Shown here: piece after piece, positions 1 to 64,000 of the stretch
Layout of the letters: the number at the start of each line of letters is the position of its first letter
How positions within the stretch are numbered: the stretch's first letter is position 1
DNA from: Eutreptiella sp. 'Long Island Sound 2002'
Taxonomy: Eukaryota; Euglenozoa; Euglenophyceae; Eutreptiales; Eutreptiaceae
NCBI GenBank assembly: GCA_964036045.1
Contig: OZ038383.1
Location: forward strand, 60,579,725-60,643,724
Direction of reading: 5' to 3'
Length of the DNA stretch: 64,000 nucleotides
Notes under the pieces: model-generated
The model's database searches: none
What the model was told of the DNA's origin: nothing
The model's input: only the letters and a program-made list of their open reading frames with translations
Position numbers and translations under genes: made by a program

Positions 1-239
1 ATCCGAGATTCACAGTACCGTGAATTTCACCCAATTTTGCTGTGTTTTGCTCGTAACTTGGTGCTATCGTGTGCTTTTGTCGTGCTACCTTCGCCCAAAG
101 TAAGATGCAACAAATAGGTGCAGTTTAGAGGTTTAAAGTCCCCGCATGGTTTAACAGATTTGGTGAGATTCACGTGAATGTGAGATTCACGCACCTAAAT
201 TCACGCAGAAATTCACGCTATGTTCACAGATTCATAGTA

Positions 240-294
240 TGTGAAATTCGTACGAAATTCGTACGAATTTCGTACGAATTTCGTACGAATTTAC
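240..294. repeat. A-family palindrome cluster 1
   Basis: Four overlapping TTCGTACGAA palindromes. The cluster ends about 30 bp before the acceptor CCCACAG (AG at 323-324) and 49 bp before the dioxygenase ATG, so it would lie in a 5'UTR intron or promoter. Confidence 0.85.
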
Positions 295-342
295 CCTCAT
301 TTCCACCGTTTCGCTTTCCCACAGCTCTCAAACTCTTTGACA

Positions 343-2263
343 ATGTCGCAGCAGACTATGTCGCAGCTCGCCAGCCTGGCCTCGCGCCCCGACCCCGCAG
401 CCGACACCCTCGCCCACTACCAAGCCCTCCCCGTTGCCCACCATCAATTGGAGGAGGCAACGTACGAGTCGGAGGCACTGGGGGTGGATGCCATCGTGGG
501 CTGGGCAGCCTCCCTCGACCCCTCCCCCGATGTCATCCACATCGACATGCGCAGCCCCACCCGCAACAGCTACCTCGGGGGGAGGGGATGGGCCACAACC
601 CTGTGGAGGGAACTGCGCCACCAACTCCCCACCCTCAAATTTCTCCATCTGACCCCTCTCCCCTCCAGTGTTGACCAGCTCCTCAACTCGATGAGGAATA
701 ACCCTGTGGGGAAGCCTAAGGACGCCCACGTCCAGGTGTACCCCACCACTAACCTCGTCCACACCCCCCCCCACTGCGATATGGTGTGCCTGCAGGATCT
801 TGCTGCAGGTGCACCAGCAGGCCACTCTTTTTTCCCCTTTTCTTGGCATCTTGCCAACCCCCGGTGGTGGGATGATTTGGGCGTCGCCCCTTTCCATCCC
901 ACCATCCCCCCCCCAGGTGCACGTCCCCGACGTCACCCACCCCACCTTCTACAGCACAACTTCTTTGCAATGGTACCGTGGTGCCTCATGCGCCCCCCCC
1001 TTCATTTCGAGTGAACCCCCCCTCCGCACCGAACCCCTTCCCGACCCCCCTCATGGGGTGACGGGCAGCCCTGACCCCGCCCCCGACAGGGTTGGCCCCT
1101 CTTAGCCGCCCCTCAACTTTGTTGATGGGAACGGCTACATTGTGCTTCGGGGGCTTGTGGAGGAACGGGATTGTGAGGTGGGGTGGAACAAGGTGATGAA
1201 GGCGTGGGGCAGCGGCGACGAAAAAGTCGTCGCAAAAAATTTTGAGCCCCTTTTCAACGCCGCGCGGAGTGAGGAGCAGGCCAAGGATCCCGAGCTCCCC
1301 CGCCGGTGGCAAAGCAAGAGCACCTTGGGGTCGGGGGTGGGGGGGCCTCTCTTCAAGAAGTTCCACCCCCACCTCACCGAAAGTGTCCCTGGGGTTGAGG
1401 ACCTCCACCCAATGACGCCGGGCAGCGTCATTGTGGCCAGTGTGGGGAGTGGGCCGCAGCTCCCCCACACCGACGTGACCACCCACCCCGAAGTCCTCCC
1501 CCCCAGCGACAAGGCGGTGGGGGACTGCCACCTGAGTAGCTTCCTCTGCTTGTCAGAGGACTACCAGGTGGCGGTGCAGGCGGGGACGGCCCTGGGGGAG
1601 GCGGCGGAGGCGCGCTGGGACACCGTTCAGCTGCATCGGGGGGACATGCTGCTGATGGTGGCCACCAGCCGCCATCATGGATTGCCTGCCCACCCCGACT
1701 CCAAGGATGGGCTGCAGGGGGCTCTTTTTAACTTGTGGACCCCCGACCCCCGACACAAACACCACCAGGCCAACACCACACACTTGGACGCCATCCCCCC
1801 CAAGGAGGCCCTGGACGTTGCTGGGGATTTGTCCAGCTGGGACCTCCCCAGCGTGGACCAGGTGTTGTGGGTGGGGAAGGGGGCGGTTGCGAGGGTGGGG
1901 TTGTGGGAGGGGGAGGCTGCCCAGGCCCTGTTCGCCGACCCCCCGCAGACGCTCCCGGCAGGCCCCCCCACCTGCCCCTTCCACCCCACCTTCATCTCCC
2001 GGTCGGCCCCGGCCGCCGACCTCGCCGTCATCGAGGTCGGCCCCCAGTGCATGCTGTTCTTCCTGGGCAGCGTGCACCAGCTGGAGGTCGTGAAGGGGGG
2101 CGATGTCGACGCGGAGTCGGAGATCCACTTCGCCTTGTCCGGCATTGCCCCCCCGGGTCGGCCGACCACGCTGTGGCACCTGGTGAACACGGTCCCAGCG
2201 TGGCGGTCGCCCAAGTGCGCGAGGACCGGGGCATGGAGCATCACCTGCCCATGCGACTGCAAG
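343..2263 (+). pseudogene. 2OG-Fe(II) dioxygenase-like protein of element A (frameshifted)
   Basis: The start at 343 follows an acceptor AG at 323-324 and matches the layout of the B gene (CTCTCAAA directly after the AG in both). The N-terminal half is in one frame to about 905. The frame then shifts at a C run, and a TAG at 1103-1105 may instead be a 3' splice site of a short intron. The second half (about 1106-2263) looks like a jelly-roll dioxygenase: DGNGYIVLRGL at the start, a candidate metal motif HTD in QLPHTDV (about 1466), then RGDMLLMVATSRHHG (distal His) followed by LFNLWTPD. Fe(II)/2-oxoglutarate chemistry, perhaps on modified bases as in TET/JBP enzymes, is inferred from fold-like motifs only. 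The exon ends CPCDCK at donor AAG|GTGTGC in phase with the coiled-coil exon, so both may form one polypeptide. Confidence 0.55.
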
Positions 2264-2559
2264 GTGTGCCTGCTTGTGTGTTTGCTTTGTGTATTTGCAA
2301 CAATTGGACGAAATTCACGTGAAATTCGTACGAAATTCGTACGAATTTCGTACGAATTTCGTACGAATTTCACGTGAATAAATTTGTGTGAATTTTCTCG
2401 AGATGTGAAATTCGTACGAAATTCGTACGAATCTCGTACGAATTTCGTACGAATTTCTGTGAATTTCGTCCAAATTGCTCCTTTTGCTCTTCCATTGCCC
2501 CGTGTCCACTCCCCCTTTCTCAATTTTTGCCTTGCGCACCTCCCCACATCTGCATGCAG
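2264..2559 (+). other. Intron with A-family palindrome cluster 2
   Basis: Donor GTGTGC after CPCDCK and acceptor TGCATGCAG; the joined exons stay in phase (codon AAG then GTC). About 2309-2470 holds two blocks of TTCGTACGAA palindromes with CACGTG steps between. The same arrangement occurs in elements B, C and J. Confidence 0.65.
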
Positions 2560-4050
2560 GTCCCGTTCACCGCTTGGTCGCCGGATATTCGGCACCACAC
2601 CAGGCGCCAGTACAAGCCCCGGCCCCGATTGCCTGAGGAGCACGCCGAGCCCGCCGAAGGCCCCGGTGGCGCCCAGCCCGCAGGCACCGGCGGTGGACGG
2701 GCACCAAGCGAGGCCGGCAGCGTGCGCAGTGTGGGGTCGCAGCGCTCTCGGCGTTCGGGAGGCAGCGAGGCCAGCACCGCCAGGGGGCATATGGCGCGCG
2801 AGGTGGTGGTGCCCCAGCCGTCCCGCGACGAGCTGGGCGAGGCCCACACCGACCCCCCCCTGGACCGGGTCACCCTGGCCGCCAGGCAGCCGGATCCGGC
2901 CTGGACCCAGCAGGTGCCGCCCGGGCCGGATGGGCGGCAGCGGCACCTCAGTGCCGTGTGGGACATGGAGTTGGAGTCGCGGGGGGTGCAGGGCACCCTC
3001 CGCATCTCCTTCCCCTGCCCCATTGTGCTCCGGGGGGGGTCCAACCTGCCTGCGGGGCAGGAGCTGGTGGGCATGTTTGCCTACCGGCTTGTGAGTGGGC
3101 ACTGGCGGGTGCAGACGGGGGTGTCGGGGATCGGGGAGGGGGGGATGGTGACGACGGCAGGGATTTGTGGGCTGAATGTGCTCACGGGTTGGGAGCAGCG
3201 GAGGCCGGAGTGGGTGGACGTGGCATGGGTTGCCATGCGCGTCCATGTGGGGAGGCAGCGGAAGGGGGTGGTGGCTGACGTCATTGACGTCGAGGAGGAC
3301 GAACCCCCCCCCACGCGCAAGCGGAAAGGGCGCCCCGAAGGGGACACGGGCCCCACCCCCCCCCCCAAAGCCCCGCGTACGGCCACCCCGGGGGAGCGGG
3401 CAGGGCGGGCGGAGCAGGCGGAGCCGTCGGGGGGGCGGGGGCAGAGGGGGGTGGTGCAGGAGTGGGTGGACCAGCAGCGGGCGGGGGCGTGGGAGGCACG
3501 CGCCATCAGCGCGGAGGCCGCCAACCGCGACCTCGAGGCCCGTCTGCGGAACTGCGAGTCGCGGTTGGCGGACGTCACCAGGGAGCGTGACCGGCTGGCC
3601 ACCAAGGTGAAGACCCTGGAGCGTGACGTGGCGACGTTGCGCAAGGCAAAGCCAGCGGCACAGCCAGCAGAGGCAGTGGAGAGGGCTGAGGGTGCCGAGG
3701 CCCCCGCCCCCCCGGGTGACAGGGGAGGGGCCAGTGCTGCCGGTGTCCGGTACCTCCTGGCCGGCGCACAGGCCTGGCATGCCCAGGCCGAGGCATGCGC
3801 CGGCCAGATGTCCGCAGTGTCCACCGGCCTGCGGATGGCCATGATGGCCAGTGGCCAGCAGGTCAATGTGGACAGCGTGGCCCCGGACGCCCCCAAGGTG
3901 ACTGCCGCAATGGAGGAAGTGCGCCGGCAGTACCCCCCCCACCGCCTCACGTCGGCGGCCATGGACCCCTCCTTTGTGGAGGCGGTGGCGAAGCAGAGCT
4001 CCCAGGGCTCCGCTAGCCGGAGCTCTGCTCCCGTGGGGGGGGGTGCGTAG
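2560..4050 (+). CDS. Basic/coiled-coil transposon protein of element A
   Basis: This open frame follows the acceptor at 2558-2559. An Arg/Pro/Gly-rich N-terminus leads into a compact domain (about 2930-3250) containing RISFPCPIVLRGG, GMFAYRLVSGHWRV and WVDVAWVAMRVHVG. The analogous exons of B, C and J also carry a beta-rich block here. Next come a basic Pro-rich linker (KRKGRPEG) and a coiled coil (about 3480-3650, heptads such as RDLEARLRNCESRLADVTRERDR cut short here). The C-terminal region RYLLAGAQAWHAQAEACAG resembles the protein encoded at 63375-64000. No catalytic motif is seen; a DNA-binding or oligomerising accessory role is inferred. Unlike B and J, no second jelly-roll domain follows. 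Confidence 0.65.
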   Translation, partial: VPFTAWSPDIRHHTRRQYKPRPRLPEEHAEPAEGPGGAQPAGTGGGRAPSEAGSVRSVGSQRSRRSGGSEASTARGHMAREVVVPQPSRDELGEAHTDPPLDRVTLAARQPDPAWTQQVPPGPDGRQRHLSAVWDMELESRGVQGTLRISFPCPIVLRGGSNLPAGQELVGMFAYRLVSGHWRVQTGVSGIGEGGMVTTAGICGLNVLTGWEQRRPEWVDVAWVAMRVHVGRQRKGVVADVIDVEEDEPPPTRKRKGRPEGDTGPTPPPKAPRTATPGERAGRAEQAEPSGGRGQRGVVQEWVDQQRAGAWEARAISAEAANRDLEARLRNCESRLADVTRERDRLATKVKTLERDVATLRKAKPAAQPAEAVERAEGAEAPAPPGDRGGASAAGVRYLLAGAQAWHAQAEACAGQMSAVSTGLRMAMMASGQQVNVDSVAPDAPKVTAAMEEVRRQYPPHRLTSAAMDPSFVEAVAKQSSQGSASRSSAPVGGGA

Positions 4051-4423
4051 GTACCTTCCGGAGCACCTGTCCTTTCTAACCACGACGAATGTTATCCTGC
4101 CCCCCCCCCCCCCAAGCATGGGCAGTTTGACCGATATGTGGGGTACTCCCCCCCCACTGTGCGAAATTTTCTGCAGCACTGTTTGTACATTACCCCCTAG
4201 CTGACCTGATGTGCCCCCTGACCTGTTAACCTGTTAACCTGTTAATTTGCGATTCCTTTCTGCGGAACTGTTTGTATATTACACTGCTGGCTGAGTGACA
4301 GCCGGAATGAGAGCATGAGACAATGACAATGACAATGACAGCATGAGCACCATCCTGAGCTTGCTTTGTGAGGGTCAACGAGGGCACAAGGATGAGGGTT
4401 TGGCAGAAATTCTGTGACAGTCA
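4051..4423. other. Spacer with short direct repeats, element A
   Basis: No gene is seen. It holds a C run, two copies of a TTTCTGC..ACTGTTTGTA.ATTAC motif (about 4168 and 4257), three CTGTTAAC-type repeats (4221-4250) and a short ACAATG tandem (4319-4340). It is probably the 3'UTR of the coiled-coil gene plus the start of the next module. Confidence 0.5.
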
Positions 4424-4600
4424 TGTGAAATTCGCACGAAATTCGTACGAAATTCGTACGAAATTCGTACGAATTTCGTACGAATTTCACATTTTCAGAA
4501 TATTCACACATTTCTATTCATGTGAAATTCGTACGAAATTCGTACGAAATTCGTACGAATTTCGTACGAATTTCGTGCGAATCTATGTGAATTTCTTTTA
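4424..4600. repeat. A-family palindrome cluster 3
   Basis: Two blocks of TTCGTACGAA palindromes upstream of the transposase. An acceptor CAACAG at 4678-4683 and the ATG at 4701 follow, so the cluster probably lies in a 5'UTR intron. Confidence 0.85.
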
Positions 4601-4700
4601 ATTGCATGCGAATCACAGTAGAGATAGTGGTCTGCGGCAGGGGATGGTAGAAACTTTGCGATGACTGCCTGCCCATTCAACAGGTCCTGTTTCTCACATC

Positions 4701-6464
4701 ATGCCACGGCCCAAGGAGCCATTCCATCTGGTAGCGGATCGTACACGACGGCGGCGCCTACAAGAGCTCCAGGAGGTTGTTACCAAGGAGCTTGCAGCAC
4801 CCTACACCGTCAAGTACCTGCCCGACACGGGGCAAATAGTGCTTACCCCCGAAACAAGAATTGTAGCCACCGTCCAGCCCGAGCCCACCCAGGAGGAGAG
4901 GTTGATTATGGCCGTGTGGAGGATCCGGTCATTGCACCTCTCTAGGACAGAGTCCCGGTACCTAGTGGGGAGCATGACGTACGGTGTGGTATGGGACCAG
5001 GTGTACGGCATGCTCCGGCAGCTAGCGTTGCCGGAGTCCCGGGCGTTCACTGCCTATACGGGTGACGACACGGCCATCAATGGTGCGGCCTGCTACCTAC
5101 CTGACCGCATCGCCCACCTATTCAAGTGTCGACCACCACCACCCTCGGCCATCATGCAGCCCGGGGACCGACGGCTGCATTGGTTGCCTATTGCGGTGGA
5201 CGGTACATCGAGGCATGAGGCCTCGTACGTCCATTGCACGCTTGGTGGCACCGCCAGCCCCAACCAACTATCTAGTTGGTGGCTACTAGGGGGCAGTGAA
5301 AAGTGGGAGACCCTCTACGCGGCCTCCCAGGAAATTGATTTTGATGATGAGTTGCGCAAGGCCGCAACCGTAAGGTTTAAGGATACGGCAGGGAACGATA
5401 GGCAGTCCCTTTTTTTTCTGTGTGCAGATGGTAAGGCACAGGTGCTCATGGCGAGCTGCCAAAACTGGAAGGCAGAATCCCCTGGTGCCACTGTGTGTTG
5501 GGTCTGCATGCGTAACCGTGCTCTGTGCCTTGCTACCTTTGGCACAGCAAGTGCGATAGACGGCAACTGGGAACCAGCCGTTGCGATAAGTGCTATATAT
5601 AGGACCATTATGAGTGATAGGCGAGTGCCTGATTATGGCCTCCATGGGGTCCTTCGTGTCCTGTTGTGTGCAGTCAACGGGACACGGGACCTAGTTGTAC
5701 AATTGACAGGGAAGGCACCGGCCACTGTGGCACGCACCATGCTGCAACCGGTTTTAGATGAGGCACGGCTTGCTGCACGAACTTGCACCCGTGCCTCATT
5801 AAATAATGACAAGGCAAACAGCAAGGGGAAGGTGAGGATGGAGTGTGCTGCTGCCATCCATTTCATGCGCAATAAGGGTTGGGAGAAGATAATAGATGCT
5901 TGCCTAGAGCAGCCTAGTGTCAGGCAGCATCAAGTAGGGGGAAAAAGTTGGGAGTCGGTGTGCAAAACGTGGTGGGAGAATTTTGCAAGCATGAGTGTAT
6001 ACGCGTGGCGTTCCGCATGGTTCTCCGGGGCCGACTTGGGGCGGCTCCGGAACCATAGCATAGCCATGGGCGCTGCCCACAATGAGCTCCAGTGGGGCAA
6101 ACTTCTGTGGACGCATCTTTGGATCGACCACATGTATTATTTTGCAAAGAAGTGGAGAATCTTGTCAAAGTTCTCCTGCTTTGCCATGGAGGGAAGTCAC
6201 CGGAGGCTGAAGCGCATGTTGCGCAACAGCGGGGGCCTAAGCCTCCTCCGGGGAAGACTAGGGGTGCAAGTGGTTGTGGACAACCACACCATTGACGATA
6301 GCCTTTGGTTGCATGGGTGGGATGCGACCAAAAGGGCTCAACATGGGCAAGGGCCCATAAGTGTACGAACGTATGCAAGCCGCACAAGAAGACGGCTTCT
6401 AACCGACATGCAGCACCTTCAGACTCTACAGCGGCGGTTCCGGTGCCGCAAGAGACGGACATGA
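4701..6464 (+). CDS. DDE-type transposase with CWxC insertion, element A (intact)
   Basis: An uninterrupted 587-codon frame, the best reference copy of this family in the window. Candidate catalytic residues are D167 in IAVDGTSRH, D243 in CADGKAQV and E497 in AMEGSHRRLK, with a CWVC knuckle at 266-269, PDYGLHGV near residue 312 and HLWIDHMYYFAKKW shortly before the Glu. The N-terminus is basic (RTRRRRLQEL) and helical. Homologues here are C (17927-23248) and I (60345-62082), and more remotely B, E1, E2 and J, where D1 reads DAT rather than DGT. The D2-to-E spacing is long, as in transposases with helical insertions. Cut-and-paste activity and a nuclear site are inferred. The start follows a splice acceptor by 17 bp, as in B, I and E2. 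I cannot assign it to a named superfamily. Confidence 0.75.
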   Translation: MPRPKEPFHLVADRTRRRRLQELQEVVTKELAAPYTVKYLPDTGQIVLTPETRIVATVQPEPTQEERLIMAVWRIRSLHLSRTESRYLVGSMTYGVVWDQVYGMLRQLALPESRAFTAYTGDDTAINGAACYLPDRIAHLFKCRPPPPSAIMQPGDRRLHWLPIAVDGTSRHEASYVHCTLGGTASPNQLSSWWLLGGSEKWETLYAASQEIDFDDELRKAATVRFKDTAGNDRQSLFFLCADGKAQVLMASCQNWKAESPGATVCWVCMRNRALCLATFGTASAIDGNWEPAVAISAIYRTIMSDRRVPDYGLHGVLRVLLCAVNGTRDLVVQLTGKAPATVARTMLQPVLDEARLAARTCTRASLNNDKANSKGKVRMECAAAIHFMRNKGWEKIIDACLEQPSVRQHQVGGKSWESVCKTWWENFASMSVYAWRSAWFSGADLGRLRNHSIAMGAAHNELQWGKLLWTHLWIDHMYYFAKKWRILSKFSCFAMEGSHRRLKRMLRNSGGLSLLRGRLGVQVVVDNHTIDDSLWLHGWDATKRAQHGQGPISVRTYASRTRRRLLTDMQHLQTLQRRFRCRKRRT

Positions 6465-6574
6465 GATGATCTTACGAACCCAGACCATTGTTGCCTGTGA
6501 CCGGGGTGCATGCTGGGGGGCTTACTAGGGGTGTGAGGACAAATCTGGGGGTGCACACGGGTAACATTTGTGTA

Positions 6575-6672
6575 AATTCACGTGAATTCACGTGAATTCA
6601 CGTGAAATTCGTACGAAATTCGTACGAAATTCGTACGAATTTCACGTGAATTCACGTGAATTCACGCCTGTG
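6575..6672. repeat. A-family palindrome cluster 4 (3' terminal)
   Basis: CACGTGAATT repeats flank three TTCGTACGAA palindromes, about 110 bp after the transposase stop. This terminal cluster is not followed by a gene of element A. Confidence 0.8.
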
Positions 6673-6925
6673 AATCGGCTACAGGCTTGCCGGGTTCCGG
6701 CACCTCTCGTTTTGGGCACGGTGCGGTCATGATGCATGCTTTTGGGGCGGGCTTTTCATTGGATGATGCGTATCAAAGCTAGGGGAGGAATTTTGGCCCC
6801 TCAAAGCCCTTGAAATGAACCAAGAATATGGCATTTTCCCCCAAAAACCTCAATTTTTGGGTAAATTCACGTGAAATTCACGCAATTATTCAAACGGCCA
6901 CTTAACGGCCGTTCACGAAGGGTAC
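6673..6925 (+). repeat. Right terminal region of element A
   Basis: No gene. The last 56 bp (6870-6925) match, inverted, the left end of the short element at 31590: GTGAAATTCACGCAATTATT and AAACGGCCACTTAAC, then GTTCACGAAGGGTAC. This fixes the right boundary and shows the short element belongs to the same family. Confidence 0.8.
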
Positions 6926-7524
6926 ATAGGTCCCCCCCCTCCGCCAACCCCTGGAGGCCGCCCTCTTCGGCAAGTGGGACCAGCCGGGCAATCCCTACTT
7001 GGTCTGGCGAATTGACGCCACCCGCGTCAACTTCGCCCTGACCAGGGGGGTTCTTAGCAGGTTCTGCTGTGCCGTGATAGGGCGGTACCCCACGACGCTC
7101 GCGGTCGAGTTGCAGCTGTCGCAAGTCACCCTTGCGGGCCTCAACAAGACCTTGAAGCTGTGCACTGCTGCAGCGTCAAAAGAGTTCGTCAACGCTCTCG
7201 CGCTGCAGGAGATGCGGCCTCAGGGTCTTGACCCCGAGGAGCAGTGGCTGTGGGTGGATCCAGTCAAAAAAAGGGGCTGGAAGCACCCCACGGCCACTGA
7301 CACCGTCGTGGGGTACCAGACGGTGAAGGTGCAGGCGTGGGATGCAGTAGCTCCCACGGAGTTCCCCACCAACCGTCGCCTGCGCACCCACATCCCTGAC
7401 ATCACCCACCCCACCCTCTACACCACCAACGCCCCCTTCACCATGCTTGGCTTGGGTTGCCCCCACCCCTCCTTCCACAACTCCTACCCCGTCGCCTCCC
7501 ACGACATCCCCAACCCCTCCATTG
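6926..7524 (+). pseudogene. Element C dioxygenase gene, part 1 (between elements A and B)
   Basis: This segment encodes a continuous frame with KWDQPGNPYLVWRID, GRYPTTLAVEL and RTHIPDITHPTLYTTNAPF. The last motif matches HVPDVTHPTFYSTT at about 915-960 in the element A dioxygenase, which identifies the piece. Its 5' part lies beyond element A, outside the window. The frame is cut at 7524 by the left inverted repeat of element B and resumes at 14559. No metal-binding residues fall in this piece. Confidence 0.55.
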
Positions 7525-7698
7525 GGATGCAGCGTTCTAGGGCGTGGTGCGGAACCCCCCCAATTTTGGGTGTTGTTAATATGGTTGGAACCCGGAATTT
7601 CACATGTTACATGGGTGCACTATGATGCAACAATGTGCCTTCCATGTTTCATTTGCTCGATATTGCCCGTTTTGCACTTTTTGCGATTTGATGTTTGT

Positions 7699-7852
7699 GT
7701 GCTCTAACTAGTTAGAACGGGGTTAGAACGGGGTTAGAGCACTAGTTATCGCGTGGGTTATCGCGCGATAACCTAGTTATCGCGGGGGTTATCGCGGGGG
7801 TTATCGCGCGATAACTAGTTATCGCGCGAGTTATCGCGTAGGTTATCGCGCT
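7699..7852. repeat. B-family palindrome cluster 1
   Basis: Alternating CTAGTTAGAAC and GTTATCGCG units that pair as GTTATCGCGCGATAAC. It ends about 28 bp before the acceptor CGCTTTAG (AG at 7880-7881) and 55 bp before the dioxygenase ATG at 7908. Confidence 0.9.
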
Positions 7853-7907
7853 TCATTTTATGTTTCCCCTTTTCGCTTTAGCTCTCAAAGCTTTCATATT
7901 CTTCGTA

Positions 7908-10035: not shown

Positions 10036-10232
10036 GTGTGAAAACTTCCCACAACACCCTGCTCTAACCCCTGCTCTAACTAGTTATCGCGCTAGGTTAT
10101 CGCGTTCTAACTAGTTATCGCGGGGTTATCGCGGGGGGTTATCGCGGGGGTTATCGCGCGATAACCTAGTTATCGCAGGGGTTATCGCGCGGGTTATCGC
10201 GTGTTTTTTTTTGTTTCTTTTGTTTTTTTCAG
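10036..10232 (+). other. Intron with B-family palindrome cluster 2
   Basis: Donor GTGTGAAAAC, acceptor TTTTTTTCAG. GTTATCGCG palindromes occupy 10076-10202. The position matches the palindrome introns of A, C and J. Confidence 0.65.
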
Positions 10233-11409
10233 GCTACCATCTTGCAGCTGCCCCGTATCTTCGTCAAGGACGACGCCCAGGCAGCCGAGGCAGCGGGCGG
10301 AGCAGCAGAAGCAGCAGGGGCACGGCCCGGTTGGAGCTGGAGGGGGAGAAGAGGCTGCCGGAGGGGGCGTCGTGGCGGTGGGGGGAGCCTGGGGATGAGG
10401 CCTGCAGGATGGGGGGGACGGGATGGTACCGGCAGGTCACCATCACCGAGAAGGAGGGGGGGGTGGAGAGGAAGACCAACCTCACCCTCCCCTCCTATGT
10501 GTGGGTTGGGGGGGAAATGGCCAAGTGGCCGAATGCCGCAGAGGGGGAAACGGTTGCGGCTTTTTTGTGTTTGTTTGGGATGAGCGACCCCCCCCAAAGG
10601 AAATCTTATTTCCTTTTGAGGGTGTGTTTTTTGTGGGAGGGGGAGTATACGGGGAGGGAAGTGTGGCAGAAGCTGCACAGGGGGGGGGACATCCACCAGG
10701 TTGGTGGGTATGACCCCCCCCCTTCTGTGGTGGACGCCACTGCCGATGGGGTTCGGCAGTATGCACCCAAGGGGGGAAGGCCGGGAAAAGGCCAGACGAA
10801 GCGGGGACCAGACGTGGTGGTGGTTGAGCCGGATGCCCCCCCCCCCTTAGGGGTAAGGGCCAAACCCCCGCCCCCAAGCCCTCCCCCAAGCCATCGAAGG
10901 TGGCAAAGGTGGCGGCGGCCCAGCCCCCCCATGAGGCCCTGAACGTGGAGGCCTTGGGGGCCAGTGTGGCCACCCACGTGACGGACGCTTGCCAGGTTTT
11001 GGTGGAGCAGGCGGCCGCCACGGGGGTCGAGGCCGCACTGGCCAAGGGTCGGTCGGCCGACCACAAGTCGGCCTTGGCGAAGGCCGAAAAGGCCCAGGGC
11101 AACACCCAGCGTGCCCTGGACCAGGCCCTCAACCTGGCCGCGAAGAGGGGGGAGGAGGTGGAGGCGATGAGGGAGGCCCTGAGGGAGGCCCAGGAGGGGA
11201 GGCGGAAGGCGGAGGTGGAGGCGGCCCAGCTTAGGGTGGAGGTGGAGGGGCAGCGGAGGAGGGGGGATGACCTCCGGCAGCGCTTGGGGGTGGCCGAGGC
11301 GCAGGTGCGCAGCCTCACCTCCACCCTCAGTGCCTCCTTCACCGCCCAGCAGGGGCTGGCGCCGCAAGGGTTGCAGAGTCAGGGTAGCGGGAGTAGGAGT
11401 GGGAGCCAA
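10233..11409 (+). pseudogene. Basic/coiled-coil transposon protein of element B
   Basis: The exon begins ILQLPRIFVKDDAQAAEAAG after the acceptor. The frame shifts near 10318 into LELEGEKRLPEGASWRWGEPG and a beta-rich domain (GWYRQVTITEKEGG, TLPSYVWVGGEMAKWP, VAAFLCLFGM), the counterpart of the A and C exons. A second shift at a C run (about 10845) leads to a long heptad coiled coil (about 10930-11330, with KAEVEAAQLRVEVEGQRRR) and a Gly/Ser/Gln tail GLQSQGSGSRSGSQ, like the GSGSQGSQ tail of J. An in-frame TGA at 11410-11412 separates it from the second jelly-roll module, which continues in the same frame as in J. No enzymatic motif is seen in this part. Confidence 0.6.
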
Positions 11410-11412
11410 TGA

Positions 11413-12309: not shown

Positions 12310-12482
12310 CGCAGTAACCCCTGCTCTAACTAGTTATCGCGGGGGTTATCGCGCGATAACTGGGTGCTCTAACTAGTTATCGCGGGGGTTATCGCGCTCT
12401 AACTAGTTATCGCGGGGGGTTATCGCGGGGGTTATCGCGCGATAACCTAGTTATCGCGGGGGTTATCGCGTGGGTTATCGCG
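12310..12482. repeat. B-family palindrome cluster 3
   Basis: CTAACTAGTTATCGCG and GGTTATCGCGCGATAAC units. They end about 45 bp before the acceptor GTGCCCAG (12523-12530) and 65 bp before the transposase ATG. Confidence 0.9.
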
Positions 12483-54611: not shown

Positions 54612-54665
54612 CGTTCGCCGTATACTTCGAGTATATACGGCGGTATACTCATAGTAGTAGTATAC
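54612..54665. repeat. J-family palindrome cluster 3
   Basis: CGCCGTATACTTCGAGTATA and CGGCGGTATAC units upstream (minus strand) of the J transposase start. Confidence 0.75.
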
Positions 54666-54674
54666 GGTGCTCAC

Positions 54675-56385
54675 TAGTGGCCCCAAGGACGAAAGCCATA
54701 GGCCAATAACTCTTCAACATATTCATCAGGGAGGTAATCTGTGTTGCACCCATTGTAGAAAACATTGGCATAGCGCTCTCCCCTCCCCCCTCCCCCCTCC
54801 CCCCGTGGCGGGCTTTGCAGTTGAAAACCAGTCCCGGCCAGCCCTTGTAGGCCTTTGCATCCACAACACCACCTCCATGTACATCCAACCGCATCGGGGT
54901 CCCTTGCGTGGGACTATGGAGCACTCCATCTGTTTCAACACAGACCTCCCCACCACTATGCACCCCGACAACGCAAATGACGGAAAGCGGAGAAGGATCC
55001 TTCATATGGCGATGGCCCGGCATTCTTTGTGAAGTATTGCATTGTACCACTTGAATGGTGGTCCAATGGAACCACCTCGGAAAATTTGCATACGCATGTG
55101 CATTTGAAAGGCAAATTAGCTCCCTTTGCCTTTCATTCCCGCTGCACAAGCGCACACAACGCCAATCCTTCCCTTGCCTGTGTGTCCGTGTAGCCCCTAA
55201 CTGCACGTTGTGCACTTGTACACCCAAGATGTGCACCTTGCGGTAAAACCAATTCTCGGCACAAAGCTGCAAGGGTGGGGTTGGATGGGGTAAGTCATAT
55301 TGCGGCTTTGGGGGCAAGCCACGTAGTGGGGAGGCGGACTGACTGCCCTGACTCCCACTGCCCTCACTCCCAGACCCTTGGGGTGGGGGTGCAGTCCGTG
55401 TGACACTATGGGCCACAATGGACCTCGCCCACTCCTCATTGGCCTTGGCCGCTTGCAGTTGCGTCTCCAACTCCTTGGCCTTGATGTGCTAGTTATGGGC
55501 ACTTGTCGTGGCCTCGGCCAACTTGGCATCCAGGTCCACAATCCTCCTCTCCTTGGCGTCACCTCAGCATGGGCAGCCTTCAACTCCTCCTTGAGGGAGA
55601 CATTGGCCTCCCTCAGGGAGGTCAGGGAAGTCCGGCTTAACTCCCCAATCTCCTTGGAGATGTTGAGCCGGGACTTCCCCAAGCCCGCCACAACACCACC
55701 GACAATGTCAGTGGTGCTGGGCACAGCGAGGTCCCCCAGGGCCTCGCATGCGCCACGGCGGGTAGCCGCTTCAATCCCCCCCACCCCCCCAAACCCCTCA
55801 AGCCCCTGAGCTCATAGCAACAACAGCAGCAGCAGACCCGGAAGCCTTGGGGGCCTTCCGGGTGGGGGGGGACTGTAGGGGTGGCGCTCAGCTCAGCTCA
55901 TCATGAGCCCGCTTCAGCCCCCTCCCCCCAAGCTGTTTTCCCGCCCTCGCGGCCAACGCAGCCTGGACGGCTAGGGATTGCTCCAGGGGGACAGGCTTCC
56001 CCCCAAAACTTTGGAGCACCATGATGGCGTCCGGAATGCTCCATTTCCCCCCCGTGGTGCTCAAAAAAACCCGCACCTTCCTATAGCTCTTGCTCCACAC
56101 TGCAGCCCCCCAAATGGCCTCCATTACCCCCTCCTTCAAATTTGCAATGACCTTTATGGGCAGGCGAATATCATACAGTGCACCGCTGGCACGGACATTG
56201 AGTCGGGAATAGTACCCAGTGTCTTTGCCACTGGTGCATGCCAGGTCGGAGGGCGCACTGGCAACATCCCCCCGACCCACCGGAATGGGTTCCACGTGCT
56301 CCCATCCGGGGACCACTTGGCCCGCGGCAGCCTTTGGCGCCATCATCTCCGCCTCGGGCTCGGCCATTTCGTAATCAGTGATGCT
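54675..56385 (-). pseudogene. Coiled-coil plus second jelly-roll protein of element J
   Basis: Minus strand, from the acceptor CACTGCAG (56386-56387). First exon: SITDYEMAEPEAEMM, then a beta-rich domain (GYYSRLNVRASGALYDIRL, AIWGAAVWSKSYRKVRVF), ending KRAHDELS with a stop near 55888. After shifts comes a coiled coil (SKEIGELSRTSLTSLREANV, ELETQLQAAKANEEWARS), a GSGSEGSGSQGSQ linker and the jelly-roll module: GHRHMKDPSPLSVICVVG, HSGGEVCVETDG, GWPGLVFNCKARH. A last shift leads to DEYVEELLAYGFRPWGH and TAG at 54675-54677. Here linker and jelly roll are continuous, showing that B's TGA at 11410 is a lesion. Confidence 0.6.
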
Positions 56386-56959
56386 CTGCAGTGGCCAGTG
56401 ATCATATAGGACCTTCATGGGAAGAAAGGGTGGAATTCTAACAAAGAAGTAGTCAAAATTGATTGAAATTGCCAACAAATACCACTGCTACGGCCGCATA
56501 CCACGGAGTATACGGCCGTATGCCCCTGAGTATACGGCCGTACACCCGGAATGGGTGGGCAGGTATACGGCCGTATACTCGCAGTGGCCGTACACGGGGA
56601 GTATACGGCCGTATACCGTGGGTATACAGCCGTATACCCAAGGTATACGGCCGTATTGCCAGATCATGGCGCCGGGTGGGTGAGAGGTATGCATGCTACA
56701 CTTGCGGCGTAACGTCCGTGGTTCAAACCCCAATGCCCTCAAACATGCAAAAACGTGTGTAGGCCATTGAAGAATCCTCCGAAGAAGTTGAAAAGGTTGA
56801 TGATCAAAGAAAAATTCAACCTGAAGAGCCGCAACCAAGGCGCCGACGATAGGCAAAAAAAATAATAGACCCACCGGTGACCGTGCCTTTTGACATGCAT
56901 GACACTTACTGAATAACAACAACACACTTCCCCCGATGCCCAGAACCCACAACAAATAC
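56386..56959 (-). other. Intron with J-family palindrome cluster 2
   Basis: Minus-strand donor CAG|GTATTT after ELWCICNQ, acceptor CACTGCAG. Seven GTATACGGCCGTATAC-type palindromes lie at 56495-56660. An alternative acceptor TTTGTTAG lies near 56439. Confidence 0.65.
56665..56740 (+). other. tRNA-like pol III box pair (weak)
   Basis: TGGGTGAGAGG (56677-56687) is one base from an A box and GGTTCAAACCC (56720-56730) is a perfect B box, 33 bp apart. No acceptor stem folds, so not a tRNA gene. Possibly a SINE remnant or chance. Confidence 0.2.
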
Positions 56960-59017
56960 CTGATTGCAGATGCACCACAACTCATTCTTCTCCTCTTCCT
57001 CCTCCTCCACGTCCTCAACTTCTTCCCCGGCCTTCTCCTTGCCCTTCCTTGACTTTGGCTTGGGCTTCGGCTTGGACTTCTTCTTCCTTGAGGCGGTCTT
57101 GAATGGCCACCACTTCACCCAACCGTAGCTCTCCGCCGGTGCAACACCCATGAGGTGGTGCTTGTGCCCAAGTGCAAAACAATGCAAAACCCCACTGATT
57201 GTGGCAGTGGTGGAACCCAAGCAACACCACCAATGAACCCCCGCGAAACCACCAATGAACCGGGGGACAAGCAAGGAAAGTGCCATCCGAGCCCATAGAA
57301 GGCGAGGGGTTAGCATGCATTTGCCGCAATGGGCACTCCTCGTATGAAGGGTGACCCTCAACCCCAACTCGAAGGGGGCGGGGGGACAAATTTTCATGAA
57401 TTGCAAAAAAAGTAGCCCCATCAACAGGCATGTAGAACTCCAGTGGGGCAGGATAGCGACCCCATACAACGCCATTGTGATGCGTCATTGTCTCACCCTG
57501 ATTCCAAGCGCCCTCTTGACAGGCACCACACTGCCCCTTCACGCCGTGGGTGGCACACAATGGCACATTACCACATGTAACACAAAAAAGTGTGGTATCA
57601 TCACTCACATCCAGCAACACCTCACAACCAACTGCACCACAACTAGCATGAGGGCCTTGAGTCCCTTGGGGGGATGCAGCCGCTTTGCTGGCCCAAGGGG
57701 GAACAACAACAAGGCAAGTGTTGTTGTAGTCGAACTTTGAGGTACCAACCGAAATGAAACCAAAAACACGGGGCCAATTGGGGTTAGTGGTAGGGCAAAT
57801 ACCTCCGCGATGCACAGTAAGTGCCTTGCCCGGCCACACATGCCCCAATGTCCAATGGGGCCAATGGGGCCTCCACCCAAGGGTCCGGGAGGCCCGTGTG
57901 TGATGCAACCACAAAATCCCCAGCACAACCATCATCGGGTGTGGGGCAGAACATCGGGAACAAGCAAATTCCATGGTGTTGGTCCGAACCGGTAACATAG
58001 CTGACGTTAATGTCCCGGTGCCTACACTGCTTTTTTTCCACATCCACCGTTAGGTCTTCACCACAATAAAGGTGGTACCATTCACGACCGGACAGTTTCA
58101 ACCCAAATGAGTCTCCAAGTGGAGTATAAGGACCTCCTTTGCAAAACTGTACATTGCACCCCCGTCCGGTGGAGTCAATGTGCGGCGGCTGTCACTGTCC
58201 CCTGCACGAGTCTCGGCGGGCCAATCCTCATTAAAAATATTGACCCCCGCATCCCCCTAAGTTCCCCATACTCATCCTGAAGTTTGTCCACCCAGTCGAC
58301 AGAAATGAAGCCAGTTTGGAAAGCATGGCCCAATCGCTTGAAATCCTTGAGGTCGTCGACATGACGATGATCGACAACCTCATCGGGGATGGAGACACGA
58401 TGGTGTTCAACACCAAAAAGGGGGGTGGTGGTGAGGCGAAAGAAAAGGGATGGGTGCATCCCAGTACCCTTGTACCAGGTGGGGAGGGTGTGGCCCTCCA
58501 ATCGGCATGCCAGGACCATGGCAATTGGGAGTGGAGGGAGTAGACGGGGGCGGTGTCCTCCCAATGCCCCCTCTGCACTTGTTGGGCCTTGCACTCCTTT
58601 GCGCCAGCTAGCAGCCAGGTCACCTGAAACTTGAATCCCCGGAGAGCCATCCGGCATCTCCCATTCCCTCAAATACAAACTCATCCCCCTATTTGGTCCC
58701 CCACGGCTTTTTTTAATGTGCTCCACGACAGCGCGGGCATCCGTGTCATGGAGTTGCAGCACAATAGCTTGCAGATTAGGGTTGTTGTCAAACAACGACA
58801 ACAAAGGGTCAGTGAGGCTGTGGGGTTGGGCAACACCGGGTTGCGTTACCTTCACCAGGGCCATAGGTGTGTCCAAGGTGGACCAAGCACAATTCTCAAG
58901 AGAAGCCCAAGACACAGTGCATGTGCTGTCGGGGCTGTAAACACCTCTGTGCACTGTGCGGAGAGCTGCGTGGTCGGCCCGCTTCTTCAGGAAGGCATGA
59001 GTGCCCACATCAGTCAT
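56960..59017 (-). pseudogene. 2OG-Fe(II) dioxygenase-like protein of element J with Cys-rich domain
   Basis: Minus strand, ATG 59015-59017 after the acceptor CTCTCCTAG. N-terminal domain NPNLQAIVLQLHDTDARAVV matches B. It continues to VSWADKL-type sequence (FISVDWVDKLQDEYGELRG), then shifts into GREWYHLYCGEDLTVDV and KQCRHRDINVSYV (metal motif H-x-D). Another shift leads to LTVHRGGICPTTNPNWPRVFG with distal His and Arg. The cysteine-rich module CVTCGNVPLCATHGVKGQCG has the C-x2-C-x5-C-x2-H-x5-C-x2-C spacing of B. A second domain and a Lys/Glu-rich tail end ELWCICNQ at the palindrome intron. Function inferred as in B. Confidence 0.6.
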
Positions 59018-59239
59018 GGTGCAAAGAAAAGAGGGCCTAGGAGAGCAAGAAGCAACATAATATGGATTGAAACGGACACATATGAAGACATACATTGCAA
59101 ACATGAGTGAAGTATGAGCCTAGATTGGTTTCAAGTGGTGTGCAATTGTTTGGCAAAAGCAAAGCATGCAACAAGATGGGCACAAAAGGCACAACAATGG
59201 AATTTTTCAAGTTCAAACAATCACGTGGTGCAAACAAAT

Positions 59240-59345
59240 ACCCCCAGTATACCGCCGTATACTCTAAGTATACGGCCGTATACTCCAGAGTATACGGCCG
59301 TATACTGAGGTATTGGAGCCTTGAGTATACGGCCGTGTACCCCAA
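59240..59345. repeat. J-family palindrome cluster 1
   Basis: Four or five AGTATACGGCCGTATACT units upstream (minus strand) of the dioxygenase acceptor. Confidence 0.85.
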
Positions 59346-60159: not shown

Positions 60160-60300
60160 GACGGCTCAGTTGACTGAGCCGTCACTGAGCCGTCACTGAG
60201 CCGTCACTGAGCCGGCTCACTGAGCGCTCAGAGAGCGCGCCAAATGGCTCAGTGAGCGCCCAGTGAGCGCTAAGTGAGAGCTAATTGGGGGCTCACTCAG
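60160..60300. repeat. I-family palindrome cluster, 3' terminal
   Basis: CGGCTCAGTTGACTGAGCCG, repeated GTCACTGAGCC and CTGAGCGCTCAG, CAGTGAGCGC units, downstream of the transposase on the minus strand. Confidence 0.85.
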
Positions 60301-60344
60301 GGCTCTCTTAACATGCACGGGCACAAATCATCCATCATAAGCAC

Positions 60345-62082
60345 TTACTTGGTCCTTTGTCGCAATGCAGGTTCCACAATCCTCCTCACCACGTTCTTTC
60401 TCCTCTTCCTCTCCCGCCGGGCACGTGACCAAGTCATGCACCGTCGTTGGAACGCCCTTTGCTTGGTCACAGCCCTACTCTCCACCTCGCAACCTTCTTT
60501 GTGGAGGTTATCATCTAGTGTGTGGTTATCCACCACACACTGCAAGCCGACCTATCGTTCAGCAAGCTGACCCCCCCACTATTCCTAAACAGCCGTTTCA
60601 GTCGCACATGGCTGCCCTCCAATGCAAAGCAACTAAACCTTGCAATGGTCCCCCACCGTGCAACATACGCATACATGTGGTCAACCCACATGTGCGGTCA
60701 CAAGGTTTTCCCCCATCCCAGGTCAAGGTGCCTTGCCCCCATGGTCAGTTGGCGCTGCAGCAAGGCACGTTGCTCAGCACCACTCAGAACGTCGTCCTTT
60801 CAGGCCACCTCGGCTATGGCCGCAAACTCCTCCCACCACTCCGTGCACACATCAACTCATGGCCTGCCCCCCACTTGATGGTTGCCGATCACCGGTGCAA
60901 CCAGCTGCAATAGTGGGCCCAACAGCCGGGCATTGACAAAGTACGCAGCAGCCCCCAACTCCATGCGCACTTGTCCTTTGGCATTTGCCTTGTCCGCCCC
61001 CCACTTTCCAGGCCGCACCGTGCGGGCCACTTTCGGTGCCCCGTTTACAACCCATTGCACCATGGTGGCCGCACTCTTCCTCGATACTCCTCCATGGGTC
61101 ACCAGCCCCCGCACAATTCCATTGACCCCCGCAATGGCAACACACATGACTCCATGCGCACCGAAGTCAGGAATGCGGCGGTCCACCGGGATGTCACAAA
61201 ACACCCCGTTCAGCCGTACATGGCCCTTGTTTCCTTCCAGGGCAACCTCTTGTCCCCCGAATTTGCGAAAAACCGTTTCGCGGTTTGCGCCGCAGCATTG
61301 GCACACCATGGGCCCCGGGGCTCTTCTTGGTGAAGCCGTCCCCGCCGGCCAGCATGATGTGGGCCTTGCCATTGGCCCGGACGAAGAATAGGGGGTCGTG
61401 CCACCCCATCCGCATGCCGGGCCGTAGCAGCGCGGAGCTGCGTATCGAAGTCACACTCCGATTGCATGCTGTACACCGTGGCCCACATCTCGCTACCCTC
61501 GAACAGCCACCAGCTAGCAAGCTGTGTGGGCCCCAAACCCAGTGCAGCCACTGCACTGTGCACGTAGGCCCGATTCCATCGGTTGGTGCCGTCAACGCCG
61601 ATGGTCACCCAAGTGTTGCGCTGCGCGCCCGGTTGCAAGGATTCCGGTGTGCGTACGGCACGCGCTTCATAAAGCACGGCTAGACGCTCAGCAATATTGC
61701 AGTACGCCCCTTGCATCTCATACTCCCCCTCAACGGTACTAAACCGCCGGCTAGCAGGTTGGCTGAGGTGCTTTTGCCACGGGGCCCTGTCGGCCCAGCT
61801 AACGGTGCTGTCCAGGTCGGGCAGCAGGTAGGCCATGTCGCGGCGCAACATCTGTGAACTACGCATCCGCCACAGCACGCGCAAGGCCTCTGACTTGATG
61901 TCGGGATTGGTGTCCGTGGGCCGGCTATAGTCCTCAGGGACTAGCAGAATGCTACCATCGGGTTGGAGCTCGGCCCCATATTCCTCACATAGGGAGGCCG
62001 CCACCGCGGCCTCCAGATGCTCAATCCGAGTTGCGCGCTGGCGCTGTGTTCGCAAAAAGGAAAAGGGACGTTTAGGTGGCAT
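60345..62082 (-). pseudogene. DDE-type transposase with CxxC insertion, element I
   Basis: ATG 62080-62082 follows acceptor ACCACAG by 12 bp. MPPKRPFSFLRTQRQRATRI matches the A start. D1 is in VTIGVDGTNRWNRAYVHSAV, followed by LASWWLFEGSEMW. Shifts near 61400 give FVRANGKAHIMLAGG, where the D2 Asp of ADGK reads ANGK (Asp to Asn). Another shift gives MVCQCCGANRE (knuckle C-Q-C-C rather than CWxC) and PDFGAHGVMCVAIAGVNG. After stops come WVDHMYAYVARWGTIARFSC and the Glu in ALEGSHVRLKRLFRNSGG, then VVDNHTLDDNLH. Inactive. Confidence 0.7.
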
Positions 62083-62219
62083 TTTGTGTAGCACCTGTGG
62101 TATAGGTGTAGTGCCACATGCAGTCCCCGTGCTTGCGGCACACTTATCTCTGTTCACATCTCTTTGCTATCCCCCCCACATGTTTCCCCTTGATTGTTGT
62201 CCCTAGCCTTCCCCCCCTT

Positions 62220-62579
62220 GGCCCTGCACGATTCACACTCTTCGTCGGGGTGGGGTAGTGGGGTTGCACCAGGGTGTTTGTCCCATCCCCCACCCTCCCC
62301 GGGGATGCCGCCAGGGTGTTTGTCCCGTCATACCCTCCTCCCGGGGATGCCGCCAGGGTGTTTGTCCTAGCATGCCCCCTTGCTCCCATTGCCCCCTTTG
62401 ATGCCCCCCTCCCCCCCGTTGATGCCGTAATATGCGCTGCAGCCCCCCCCCCCCCCACAGCCCCGGCACACACCCTGTTTCCAGTCCCTCGTGGTAGGTG
62501 CCACATCCACCTCGCACCCCCTACCCACAACCACCAGTTTGTGGCGGCCAACAATTGGAGGGCCCAGCCATCCACCCAC
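62220..62579. other. Spacer of element I with GGTGTTTGTCC repeats
   Basis: Three copies of CCAGGGTGTTTGTCC, two preceded by CCGGGGATGCCG (about 62269, 62311, 62352), and several C runs. No gene seen on either strand. Confidence 0.5.
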
Positions 62580-62725
62580 TGAAAGCTCACTAAGCTTAAG
62601 CCGTTTGGCGCGCTCATTGAGCGCTCACTGCGCCGTTTTGCGCGCTCAGTGAGCGCCCAGTGAGCGCTCACTGAGCGCGCCAAACGGCGCAGTGAGCGCT
62701 CAGTGAGCTGAGTGAGGTCTCAGTT
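62580..62725. repeat. I-family palindrome cluster upstream of the transposase
   Basis: TTGGCGCGCTCATTGAGCGC, CAGTGAGCGCTCACTGAGCG and CGCCAAACGGCGCAGTGAGC (each cut), between the coiled-coil and transposase genes. Confidence 0.85.
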
Positions 62726-62869
62726 ACCTCTCAATCACTGCACACCTAAAGACAGGCACTACAGAGGCACCACACAAGAGGCCAATACGTTTTTCAAAAA
62801 GATTGTTTGTAGTCTGAACATACCGCAAGGGCCAAATCGGGCCCTGCTCCTGTACGTGTTGTTGAAAGA

Positions 62870-63240
62870 GGCCCATAACAGGGCTGAAAGAGGTGGCCTC
62901 TGGCCTGCTTGAAAAAAAAAGGGCGCAACATACCACAGGGGCTAGACTTGGCCCTGGTCTTAAACACAGGCCCACAACACGGCTGAAAGTGGTGGCCCCT
63001 GGCCTGTGTGAAAAAAAGCTGCATATCAGAGCTGAAAGTGGTGGCCCCTGGCCCACTTGAAAATTTTTTAGCTCCATGAATATTTTCAAAGTAACATACA
63101 ACCGCAATTGGTATACGGCCAGAATCACGGCACGTTTACTTGTGAAAGAAAGGCACACAGCAGGGCAGAAAGTGGTGGCCCAGGAAGTGCACAGCACGCT
63201 GCAATCTGTGGCCCCAGCCCCCCTAGAAGAAATTTCAGCA
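62870..63240 (+). repeat. Degenerate repeats around GGCTGAAAGTGGTGGCCCC
   Basis: Four copies near 62880, 62976, 63030 and 63156, several followed by TGGCCTG and an A run. No gene in 62726-63374. Confidence 0.6.
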
Positions 63241-63374
63241 CCATGAAGTGCTAAACAACAATACATACCATTCATATATACCAACCACGTAGTGGGGGTC
63301 CAACGGCTACCACAGAGCCGCGGTTCCATGGAGAGAACGCGGACTGCCAACACGGGTTTGGGCTCCCCGCCAAG

Positions 63375-64000
63375 CTACTGAGCAGCCGCCACCACATCCG
63401 ACCGATACCGGCGGTCGGCGTTCTGCAGGCGGGTTGACACTTCCGCCTCAACCTTCGGTAGGCTGTCCACGCTCAGGTCCGGCATCGTGGTTGTTCGAGG
63501 TAGCACCGCAATGGTCTGCAGCTGATGGCACAACGACTTGGCGTCGGCCATGAGCCGCGTGGCCAAGTGGGCGTACTCCAACAGTCCCGATGCCAGGAAT
63601 TGCATGGACTGCGCGCTGCGGGCTGGCGGCGGGTGCAGCCGGAACCCCTGACTGGGAGGGGGATGCAGCCCCCGGCCCAGATTCAATGTGCTTCAAGCCC
63701 TTGGACCGCTGCAGCACCTCCAGGCGTGCCTGACTGCCAGCCCGTTGGAGCTCAGAGTCCACGAGCTGGGCCTGCAGGTCGTCCCGCTGCCGCTTGATCG
63801 TGTCCAGCTCCTCCTTGAGACGGGAGGCTGCTTCCGCTGCCAGACGGGCAGCATCCCGCTCCTGGCGGAACAGGTCACAGTCACGGCATGCCTCCCGGTA
63901 CACGGTCATGGGCACGGTGCCCGGTGACCCAGGCTCACGAAGGGGGCTCCCCAGAGCCGCCTTTTGTGTTACGGCTGCATTTCCCTTGCCCGCCAGCTTT
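63375..64000 (-). pseudogene. Coiled-coil transposon protein of element I (partial)
   Basis: Minus strand, running off the window. A coiled coil (AEAASRLKEELDTIKRQRDD, LVDSELQRAGSQARLEVLQR) is followed, after a shift near 63665, by ARSAQSMQFLASGLLEYAHL and VLPRTTTMPDLSVDSLPKVE, ending VVAAAQ at TGA 63375-63377. The C-terminal part resembles the A protein (RYLLAGAQAWHAQAEACAG, MEEVRRQYPPHR). Same place in the element as the coiled-coil modules of A, B, C and J. Confidence 0.6.

Follow-up and report, generated by a model that had tools for sequence, protein, structure and literature searches.

The window analysed here is a 64,000-nucleotide stretch of the genome of Eutreptiella sp. 'Long Island Sound 2002' (C6:60,579,725-60,643,724; 2.28 Gb in 2,205 contigs). 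Much of it consists of nested DNA transposons that are mostly united by one divergent transposase, and five elements, A, B, C, I and J, each have a CpG palindrome of their own, arrayed at 3-4 sites per element. The strongest evidence is that distant arrays of one element are alike and the DNA adjoining them is unlike.

In A and B the first gene is followed by a middle protein or region and then by the transposase gene; arrays stand before, between and after them (Table 1). The order in C matches this once its inserts are discounted: A and B sit in its first gene and insert D sits in its transposase gene. When B is removed at the 2-bp duplication AT, the joined flanks of C continue in frame, and when D is removed at the 5-bp duplication GATTA, the C transposase reads ...PPDYGLHGV..., a motif it has in common with A. 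J comprises the first two modules, no transposase having been found, and I the last two, with no first gene found in the 7 kb adjoining the window; the first array of C and the third of I were found outside the window where this layout predicts them. What an earlier note on this DNA had called composite transposons are multi-gene DNA transposons. The target-site duplication (TSD) of A is 2 bp in 5/5 copies with both ends found, the sample being the window copy and six fetched copies, two of which had no left end within the part fetched.

Insert D, with its palindrome CGAAATTTCG, was also considered as a member of the family. It was rejected: its TSD is 5 bp (GATTA), it has no transposase of the group and its palindromes lie within long inverted repeats. 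D is another kind of element. Its insertion point is the conserved DYGLHG motif of C's transposase.

Palindrome arrays within elements

The motif of A, TTCGTACGAA, occurs 26 times in the window, including four sites in a small A derivative at 31.6-32.3 kb, and has a second form, TTCACGTGAA. This motif and those of C (TTGGCGCG(CG)CCAA), I (TGAGCGCTCA) and J (TATACGGCCGTATA) are as the earlier note had described them. B also has a palindrome, with half-sites GTTATCGCG and full sites GTTATCGCGCGATAAC, but it is TTATCGCGCGATAA and not the reported TTATCGCGATAA.

We tabulated eight half-sites in 23 clusters. In A, B and C, with four clusters each, only the element's own motif is present; one of the C clusters lies immediately left of the window. 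J has its own motif in three of four clusters (J2, J3 and J0, a neighbouring copy outside the window) and GTATAC arms only in J1, and carries no motif of another element. The claim that motifs of different elements are not mixed therefore stands for these four. A rule of strictly one palindrome per element was rejected on this table for I and E, whose exceptions are given below.

A de novo scan of the window found 16 clusters in which an 8-bp palindrome recurs identically three times or more, three of them belonging to D and one consisting of GACCGGTC. The same rule gave no cluster in 19 of 20 Markov shuffles and one in the remaining shuffle, on which basis a chance origin of the clusters was rejected; two other 50-kb blocks (C3 and C8) gave 0 and 2 clusters. 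The rule misses the arrays of C because these contain palindromes of two sizes.

All 18 arrays of A, B, C, I and J have their best match within their own element (permutation p = 1e-4). Mean array similarity is 0.38-0.71 within an element, compared with 0.02-0.03 for flanks and 0.00-0.03 (maximum 0.22) for arrays of other elements. The arrays are also enriched in CpG, the observed-to-expected ratio in arrays and in the element being 3.87 versus 0.67 in A, 1.87 versus 0.46 in B, 1.37 versus 0.77 in C, 1.35 versus 0.51 in J and 0.95 versus 0.69 in I. Among 46 single-mismatch variants in the A arrays, 11 fall at the four CpG positions and 34 at the central TA. In A (R 0.94) and in C (R 0.87) the distances between palindrome centres follow a period near 10.6 bp, as though the sites shared one helical face; such phasing was rejected as a general rule, B having 12-bp units and I and J giving weak signals.

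A further motif, AACTAGTT, joins half-sites in the B arrays (7706, 7813, 10078, 10109, 12328, 12371, 12401 and 14312). It likewise joins half-sites in the array of a locus on chromosome C1 (L088, about 781-897) and is found once in a C array (16255), despite differing half-sites. Another transposon superfamily here, piggyBac-like, may also carry clustered palindromes (Table 1). Rfam and tRNA scans gave no match.

Table 1. Elements, genes and arrays of the window. Positions count from the first nucleotide of the window and negative values lie to its left; TIR, terminal inverted repeat.
Feature	Position	Strand	Details
Element A	1..6926	+	left end 27 bp left of window; TIR TGTACCCTTCGTGAAC..., 2-bp TSD TA
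A array 1	240..295		TTCGTACGAA; upstream of first gene
A first gene	343..2263	+	broken copy; ends CPCDCK, then gtgtgc; full-length relative P0047; oxygenase-like by HTD...HH pattern only
A array 2	2310..2470		probable intron, between donor-like site 2264 and acceptor-like site 2559
A middle protein	2560..4050	+	predicted coiled coil
A array 3	4420..4590		upstream of transposase gene
A transposase	4701..6464	+	587 aa, without Pfam match
A array 4	6570..6670		3' subterminal; TTCGTACGAA and TTCACGTGAA
Small non-autonomous A derivative	31589..32323		A's TIRs and four A palindromes
Element B	7529..14554	+	TIR GCAGCGTTCTAGGGCGTGGTGCGGAACC, TSD AT; inside C's first gene
B array 1	7700..7852		GTTATCGCG/CGCGATAAC
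B first gene	7908..10035	+	frameshifted copy, 2OG-oxygenase-like; ends CPCHQ, then gtgtga
B array 2	10070..10203		probable intron
B middle region	10233..11412	+	
B array 3	12320..12485		
B transposase	12547..14167	+	distant homologue of A's (E 1e-4)
B array 4	14245..14375		3' subterminal
C array 1	-425 to -335		left of window
C first gene	about 6929-7526 (left part), 14557..16019 (right part)	+	ends CSCGEK, then gtgtgc
C array 2	16080..16290		TTGGCGCG(CG)CCAA; probable intron
C middle region	16411..17652	+	
C array 3	17670..17825		
C transposase	17928..23249	+	interrupted by insert D
C array 4	23675..23740		3' subterminal
Insert D	18911-22501		long inverted repeats full of TGGCCGAAATTTCGGCCA; one short open reading frame
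Element E1	24770..26210	+	mixed 5' array, transposase fragment, 3' array TTGTTGCGCAACAA
Element E2	29440..31430	+	transposase, degenerate arrays on either side
Element J	54615..59340	-	first gene related to B's, middle region
J arrays	54615-54675, 56485-56660, 59240-59340		
Element I	60160..64000	-	transposase 60365-62084; middle protein extends into flank
I arrays	60160-60305, 62595-62715, 65040-65195		third outside window
piggyBac-like transposase	27828-28904		DDE_Tnp_1_7, E 2e-13
Arrays near piggyBac-like gene	27072-27118, 27640-27731		GTACGTAC, ACCGGTC
Tandem units	33501-36349		three of about 0.95 kb, with Lys/Glu-coding repeats
Perfect palindrome	40185-40230		46 bp
Reverse transcriptase domain	48713-50710		RVT_1, E 9e-13

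Palindrome type and transposase clade

The transposase signature H-[LMIF]-W-[IVM]-D-H-[MLV], searched as a DNA pattern, has 2,068 matches in the genome (control, 1). From 100 of these that were listed we picked 25 transposase 3' ends on chromosome C1 so as to cover the spellings of the signature. Clear arrays are present at 13 of the 25 loci. They are of A type (L070), C type (L073, L074 and L094) or I type (L075, L076, L078 and L093), or consist of TGCGTACGCA (L079 and L080, the latter cut by the end of the stretch), TTTTAGCGCG (L088) or TTTACGCACGCAAAA (two sites at L081 and one at L072).

We compared arrays and transposases pairwise for the 21 loci with a clear or decayed array together with window elements A, C and I, counting arrays as similar above 0.1; array borders and labels were set after viewing the sequence, near-copies inflate clustering and the fragments are short. 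Shuffled arrays gave a median of 0.015, a 95% point of 0.086 and a maximum of 0.15. Arrays are similar in 23/25 pairs with at least 70% transposase identity, the two dissimilar pairs being A with L086 (77%) and A with L091 (76%). Below 70% identity only 8/251 pairs exceed 0.1, all of them in the same or neighbouring clades. At 85% identity or more (13 pairs) the median similarity of the arrays is 0.72; it is 0.57 at 70-85% (12 pairs) and 0.003 at 55-70% (18 pairs).

Placed on a transposase tree of 29 rows (L082 and L083 left out), the motif labels require 9 changes, against a minimum of 8 and a shuffled mean of 17.7; none of 200 shuffles was as low. Among the motifs it is TTCGCGCGAA whose group is split; support for the C group is weak. 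One label, M (L071, L084 and L085), was set by eye on decayed arrays and appears to represent decayed TTCGCGCGAA. At first sight two loci combine an array with the transposase of another clade, as would be expected were one palindrome shared by unrelated clades. At L089 the B array belongs to an inserted B element with B's TIR. The I-type array behind a truncated transposase at L082 is probably part of another element, although no TIR was identified there. The earlier note had proposed that the palindrome diverged as a unit, and the palindrome does behave as a family trait.

Genome-wide there are 3,244 + 3,285 tandem A sites and 5,868 + 5,769 tandem B sites, and tandem pairs of TTCGCGCGAA occur at 267 places; the reversed-pattern control gave 0 for each. 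At least 74 transposase copies are 98-100% identical to that of A. Judged by coordinates only, 5/10 A-type transposases and 0/20 others have an exact A tandem pair within 2.5 kb (Fisher p = 0.0018). In the shared range, none of 25 A places has a listed B place within 300 bp, and eight C1 segments around A sites held no palindrome cluster besides A's own forms. The part of C1 covered by the transposase list contains six TTCGCGCGAA clusters, of which two are 441-470 bp from a listed transposase; both represent one haplotype of A's sister clade, and none is near an A-type transposase. No relatives were found at E<=0.01 in two 50-kb blocks and 50 kb of extra neighbourhood. Viral contigs yielded 37 pattern stretches, none confirmed as a relative, and palindrome pairs as single sites only, in 7 and 1 contigs. 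Left of the window, at a distance of 24.6 to 11.6 kb, there is a satellite-like field of regularly repeated GTACGGGA/ATATCCCG (L058 and L059).

Encoded proteins and the proposed reading of the arrays

A profile built from the A transposase and five relatives matches A, I (E 2e-56), C (3e-21), E2 (4e-7), E1 (5e-5) and B (1e-4). The A transposase matched no Pfam family at E<=0.1 and its relative P0036 none at E<=1, and the fragments of C, E1, E2 and I gave no tnp2/Transposase_21-type Pfam match at E<=1. The protein is likely to be a DDE enzyme, because the acidic positions D167, D243 and E497 are invariant in a six-sequence alignment in which some sequences are partial.

The first gene of B plausibly encodes an oxygenase, and the case for A is weaker. 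The PhyH/2OG (2-oxoglutarate) region of B's product has a sub-threshold match to the TlxJ dioxygenase in the PDB (E 0.24), and an HxD...H pattern can be recognized by eye in B and in P0047, the full-length relative for A (HTD at 375, HH at 444), which had no Pfam matches. J's first gene is related to B's in single comparisons (E 3e-6 and 0.001), and A's matches C's over 67 residues (E 4.5e-5). These pairwise comparisons are independent of our first-gene profile, whose matches to B and J are uninformative since it included their frames. No HxD of this kind was seen at the end of J's open frame.

In A, B, C and J a cysteine motif followed by GT would close the first exon (CPCDCK, CPCHQ, CSCGEK and CICNQ, respectively), and downstream of array 2 in A, B and C there is an AG that is preceded by a T- or pyrimidine-rich stretch. 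The second array is therefore probably within an intron. AG is also present 8-26 bases upstream of seven starts (first genes of A, B and J; transposases of A, B, I and E2), and no such AG precedes the start of the C transposase.

The middle protein of A is predicted to form a coiled coil. It can be matched to that of I (E 2.8e-10) and gave no significant match to those of B, C or J, and is thus less conserved than the transposase, whose profile extends across A, I, C, E1, E2 and B.

The best explanation of these observations as a whole, and one that we consider somewhat probable, is that the arrays are binding sites for an element-encoded protein, as with TnpA of CACTA/Spm and VANC of VANDAL elements. 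The likeliest reader is the middle protein, since a coiled coil is predicted in it and its conservation is lower than that of the transposase; it would act as a dimer or oligomer on symmetric sites. The first gene, oxygenase-like in B and possibly in A, would be joined to it through the probable intron. Arrays near the ends would help the transposase to find its own copies, and at the promoter, intron and intergenic arrays the same protein, alone or with the product of the first gene, would keep the element's CpG-rich control regions active. If one protein reads all arrays of a family, these would change together, giving each family a private code.

It could instead be the transposase that reads the arrays, the internal arrays being by-products or sites of self-regulation. 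The motifs do follow the transposase tree, and A has arrays about 260-360 bp inward of either end. However, end recognition does not need internal arrays, the TIR of A (TGTACCCTTCGTGAAC) differs from its palindrome, and at L086 and L091 transposase fragments that are still 76-77% identical are accompanied by arrays that are already different and partly decayed. We regard reading by the transposase as unlikely. The position of arrays directly upstream of acceptor-like sites and start codons would fit promoter or splicing signals for host proteins, with family differences arising by drift, and TTCACGTGAA contains CACGTG, which we take to be the core of host bHLH/bZIP sites. Host factors would, however, tend towards one site everywhere, whereas here five motifs occupy corresponding positions and at least four further motifs were seen at the 3' position; the last array, moreover, lies 3' of the transposase gene. 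Such a role for host proteins seems quite improbable. Least credible of all are neutral tandem repeats homogenized within the element by gene conversion or unequal exchange, which would account for units of about 11, 12 or 21-22 bp in variable copy number and for stepwise motif change but not for identity across 3-4 arrays that are mostly about 2 kb or more apart with unrelated flanks, for CpGs kept in CpG-poor elements or for the corresponding positions used in A, B and C.

Several observations weigh against binding by an element-encoded middle protein and against an oxygenase partner. A private motif between clades is expected from neutral divergence; only the identity of 3-4 distant arrays within an element is not, and it is this that speaks for a function. 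The three arrays of I contain 6 C-type half-sites (TTGGCGCG) besides 21 of I type. E1 is impure, its 5' array mixing TTGTCGCG and TTATCGCG and its 3' array consisting of TTGTTGCGCAACAA, and the arrays of E2 are degenerate in the motif table; E1 and E2 arrays reach a similarity of 0.37 with each other and only 0.17 and 0.25 with their own partners. On C1, arrays are decayed at 8/25 loci, as I type (L077 and L090) or as remains of TTCGCGCGAA or ATTTTCGC (L071, L084, L085, L086, L091 and L092), and 4/25 (L082, L083, L087 and L089) have no own array within the fetched stretch. Coding sequence of A is present in only two of the eight C1 segments with A arrays and was not found within 3-5.3 kb in the other six, so many arrays are in non-autonomous or broken copies. 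The middle protein has no known DNA-binding domain and its AlphaFold model is poor (mean predicted local distance difference test score (pLDDT) 44). The PhyH and 2OG-FeII_Oxy_3 Pfam matches of B's first gene are below cut-off, the oxygenase assignment of A is a by-eye pattern and the model of A's first-gene product is also poor (pLDDT 40). BLASTP gave no significant match between the first-gene products of A and B, and conservation therefore does not single out the middle protein.

How a family's address might change is suggested by A and E1. The motif of A, TTCGTACGAA, and that of its sister clade, TTCGCGCGAA, differ only at the centre, which is TA in A and CG in the sister, with the 11-bp repeat kept. 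Single variants in A are most often precisely the two intermediates (T5>C in 18 and A6>G in 16 of the 46), and arrays of E1 (TTGTCGCG versus TTGTTGCG) are one transition at a CpG apart. For these reasons a change by CpG transition, then spreading through the arrays, is suggested.

The CpG enrichment of the arrays and the oxygenase-like first gene would point to methylation, and this gene may add anti-silencing to the binding of the arrays. In the most extended form of the model, a transposase group without a Pfam family, with at least nine private motifs on its elements in one genome, would carry a self-contained, addressable anti-silencing system. In it, an oxygenase joined to a DNA-reading coiled-coil protein would be steered to the CpG palindromes of its own family at promoter, intron, intergenic gap and ends, CpG methylation would be rewritten or protected there, and the address would evolve by CpG change in the middle of the palindrome (TTCGCGCGAA and TTCGTACGAA), spreading to all arrays. 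We consider this speculative and rather unlikely, the absence of HxD in J and of a match between the first-gene products of A and B having lowered its odds.

Comparison with known systems

The private motif arrays that we found published come from plants, with few families each in the excerpts consulted. Here, one genome has at least nine motifs on related elements, in arrays that are symmetric and CpG-rich and that occupy corresponding positions where whole elements are seen. This would make it possible to follow the joint change of a DNA-binding protein and its target in many natural experiments within one nucleus, among them a two-transition step that separates sister clades. Should the first gene encode an oxygenase that acts on methylated CpG, it would in addition be a self-targeting epigenetic editor.

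Some DNA transposons of fungi carry a TET/JBP dioxygenase gene that is thought to counter silencing (PMC12730594). These belong to named superfamilies, and the consulted part of PMC12730594 mentions no private arrays. No dioxygenase family is matched above threshold here. Searches of open-licence literature gave no paper on palindrome arrays of this kind with an oxygenase.

VANDAL elements of Arabidopsis and their VANC proteins offer a close parallel. In the excerpts of PMC5735166 and PMC10398659, family-specific arrays of short motifs lie in introns and upstream of the elements' own genes, as for the VANC21 motif in introns of VANC21 and VANB21 and upstream of VANA21 (PMC5735166), and related families carry differing motifs that turn over through tandem repeats. 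Such family-specific arrays in noncoding DNA are present in the window too, their intron position being a prediction from splice-like sites. The VANC motifs given in those excerpts, unlike ours, are not palindromes. VANDALs are Mutator-like elements (MULEs) with VANA, VANB and VANC genes, and their anti-silencing has been demonstrated; the elements described here have another transposase group and a possible oxygenase as first gene. Among the proteins scanned, which cover part of the exons, no MULE transposase or VANC homologue was matched in Pfam.

CACTA/EnSpm elements have TSDs of 2-3 bp. The 2-bp TSDs of A and B are similarly short. Those in the consulted part of PMC2613891 are 3 bp, and the elements described there also resemble ours in having subterminal arrays whose motifs are diverse, differing between families even in one species, and in combining a conserved transposase with a poorly conserved binding protein. 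The middle protein of A, with its predicted coiled coil, could correspond to the TnpA-like second protein, and demethylation of Spm has been linked to TnpA (PMC10398659, in excerpt). In contrast to CACTA, the TIRs here start with TGTACCC (A) and GCAGCGTT (B), the transposase has no Pfam match, tnp2/Transposase_21 included, and arrays also lie internally, at gene boundaries.

The earlier note knew of no described transposon group with private palindromes, but in the excerpts cited family-specific arrays are already published for VANDAL/VANC (PMC5735166, PMC10398659) and CACTA (PMC2613891). The palindrome arrays of these elements are thus a variant of a known principle.

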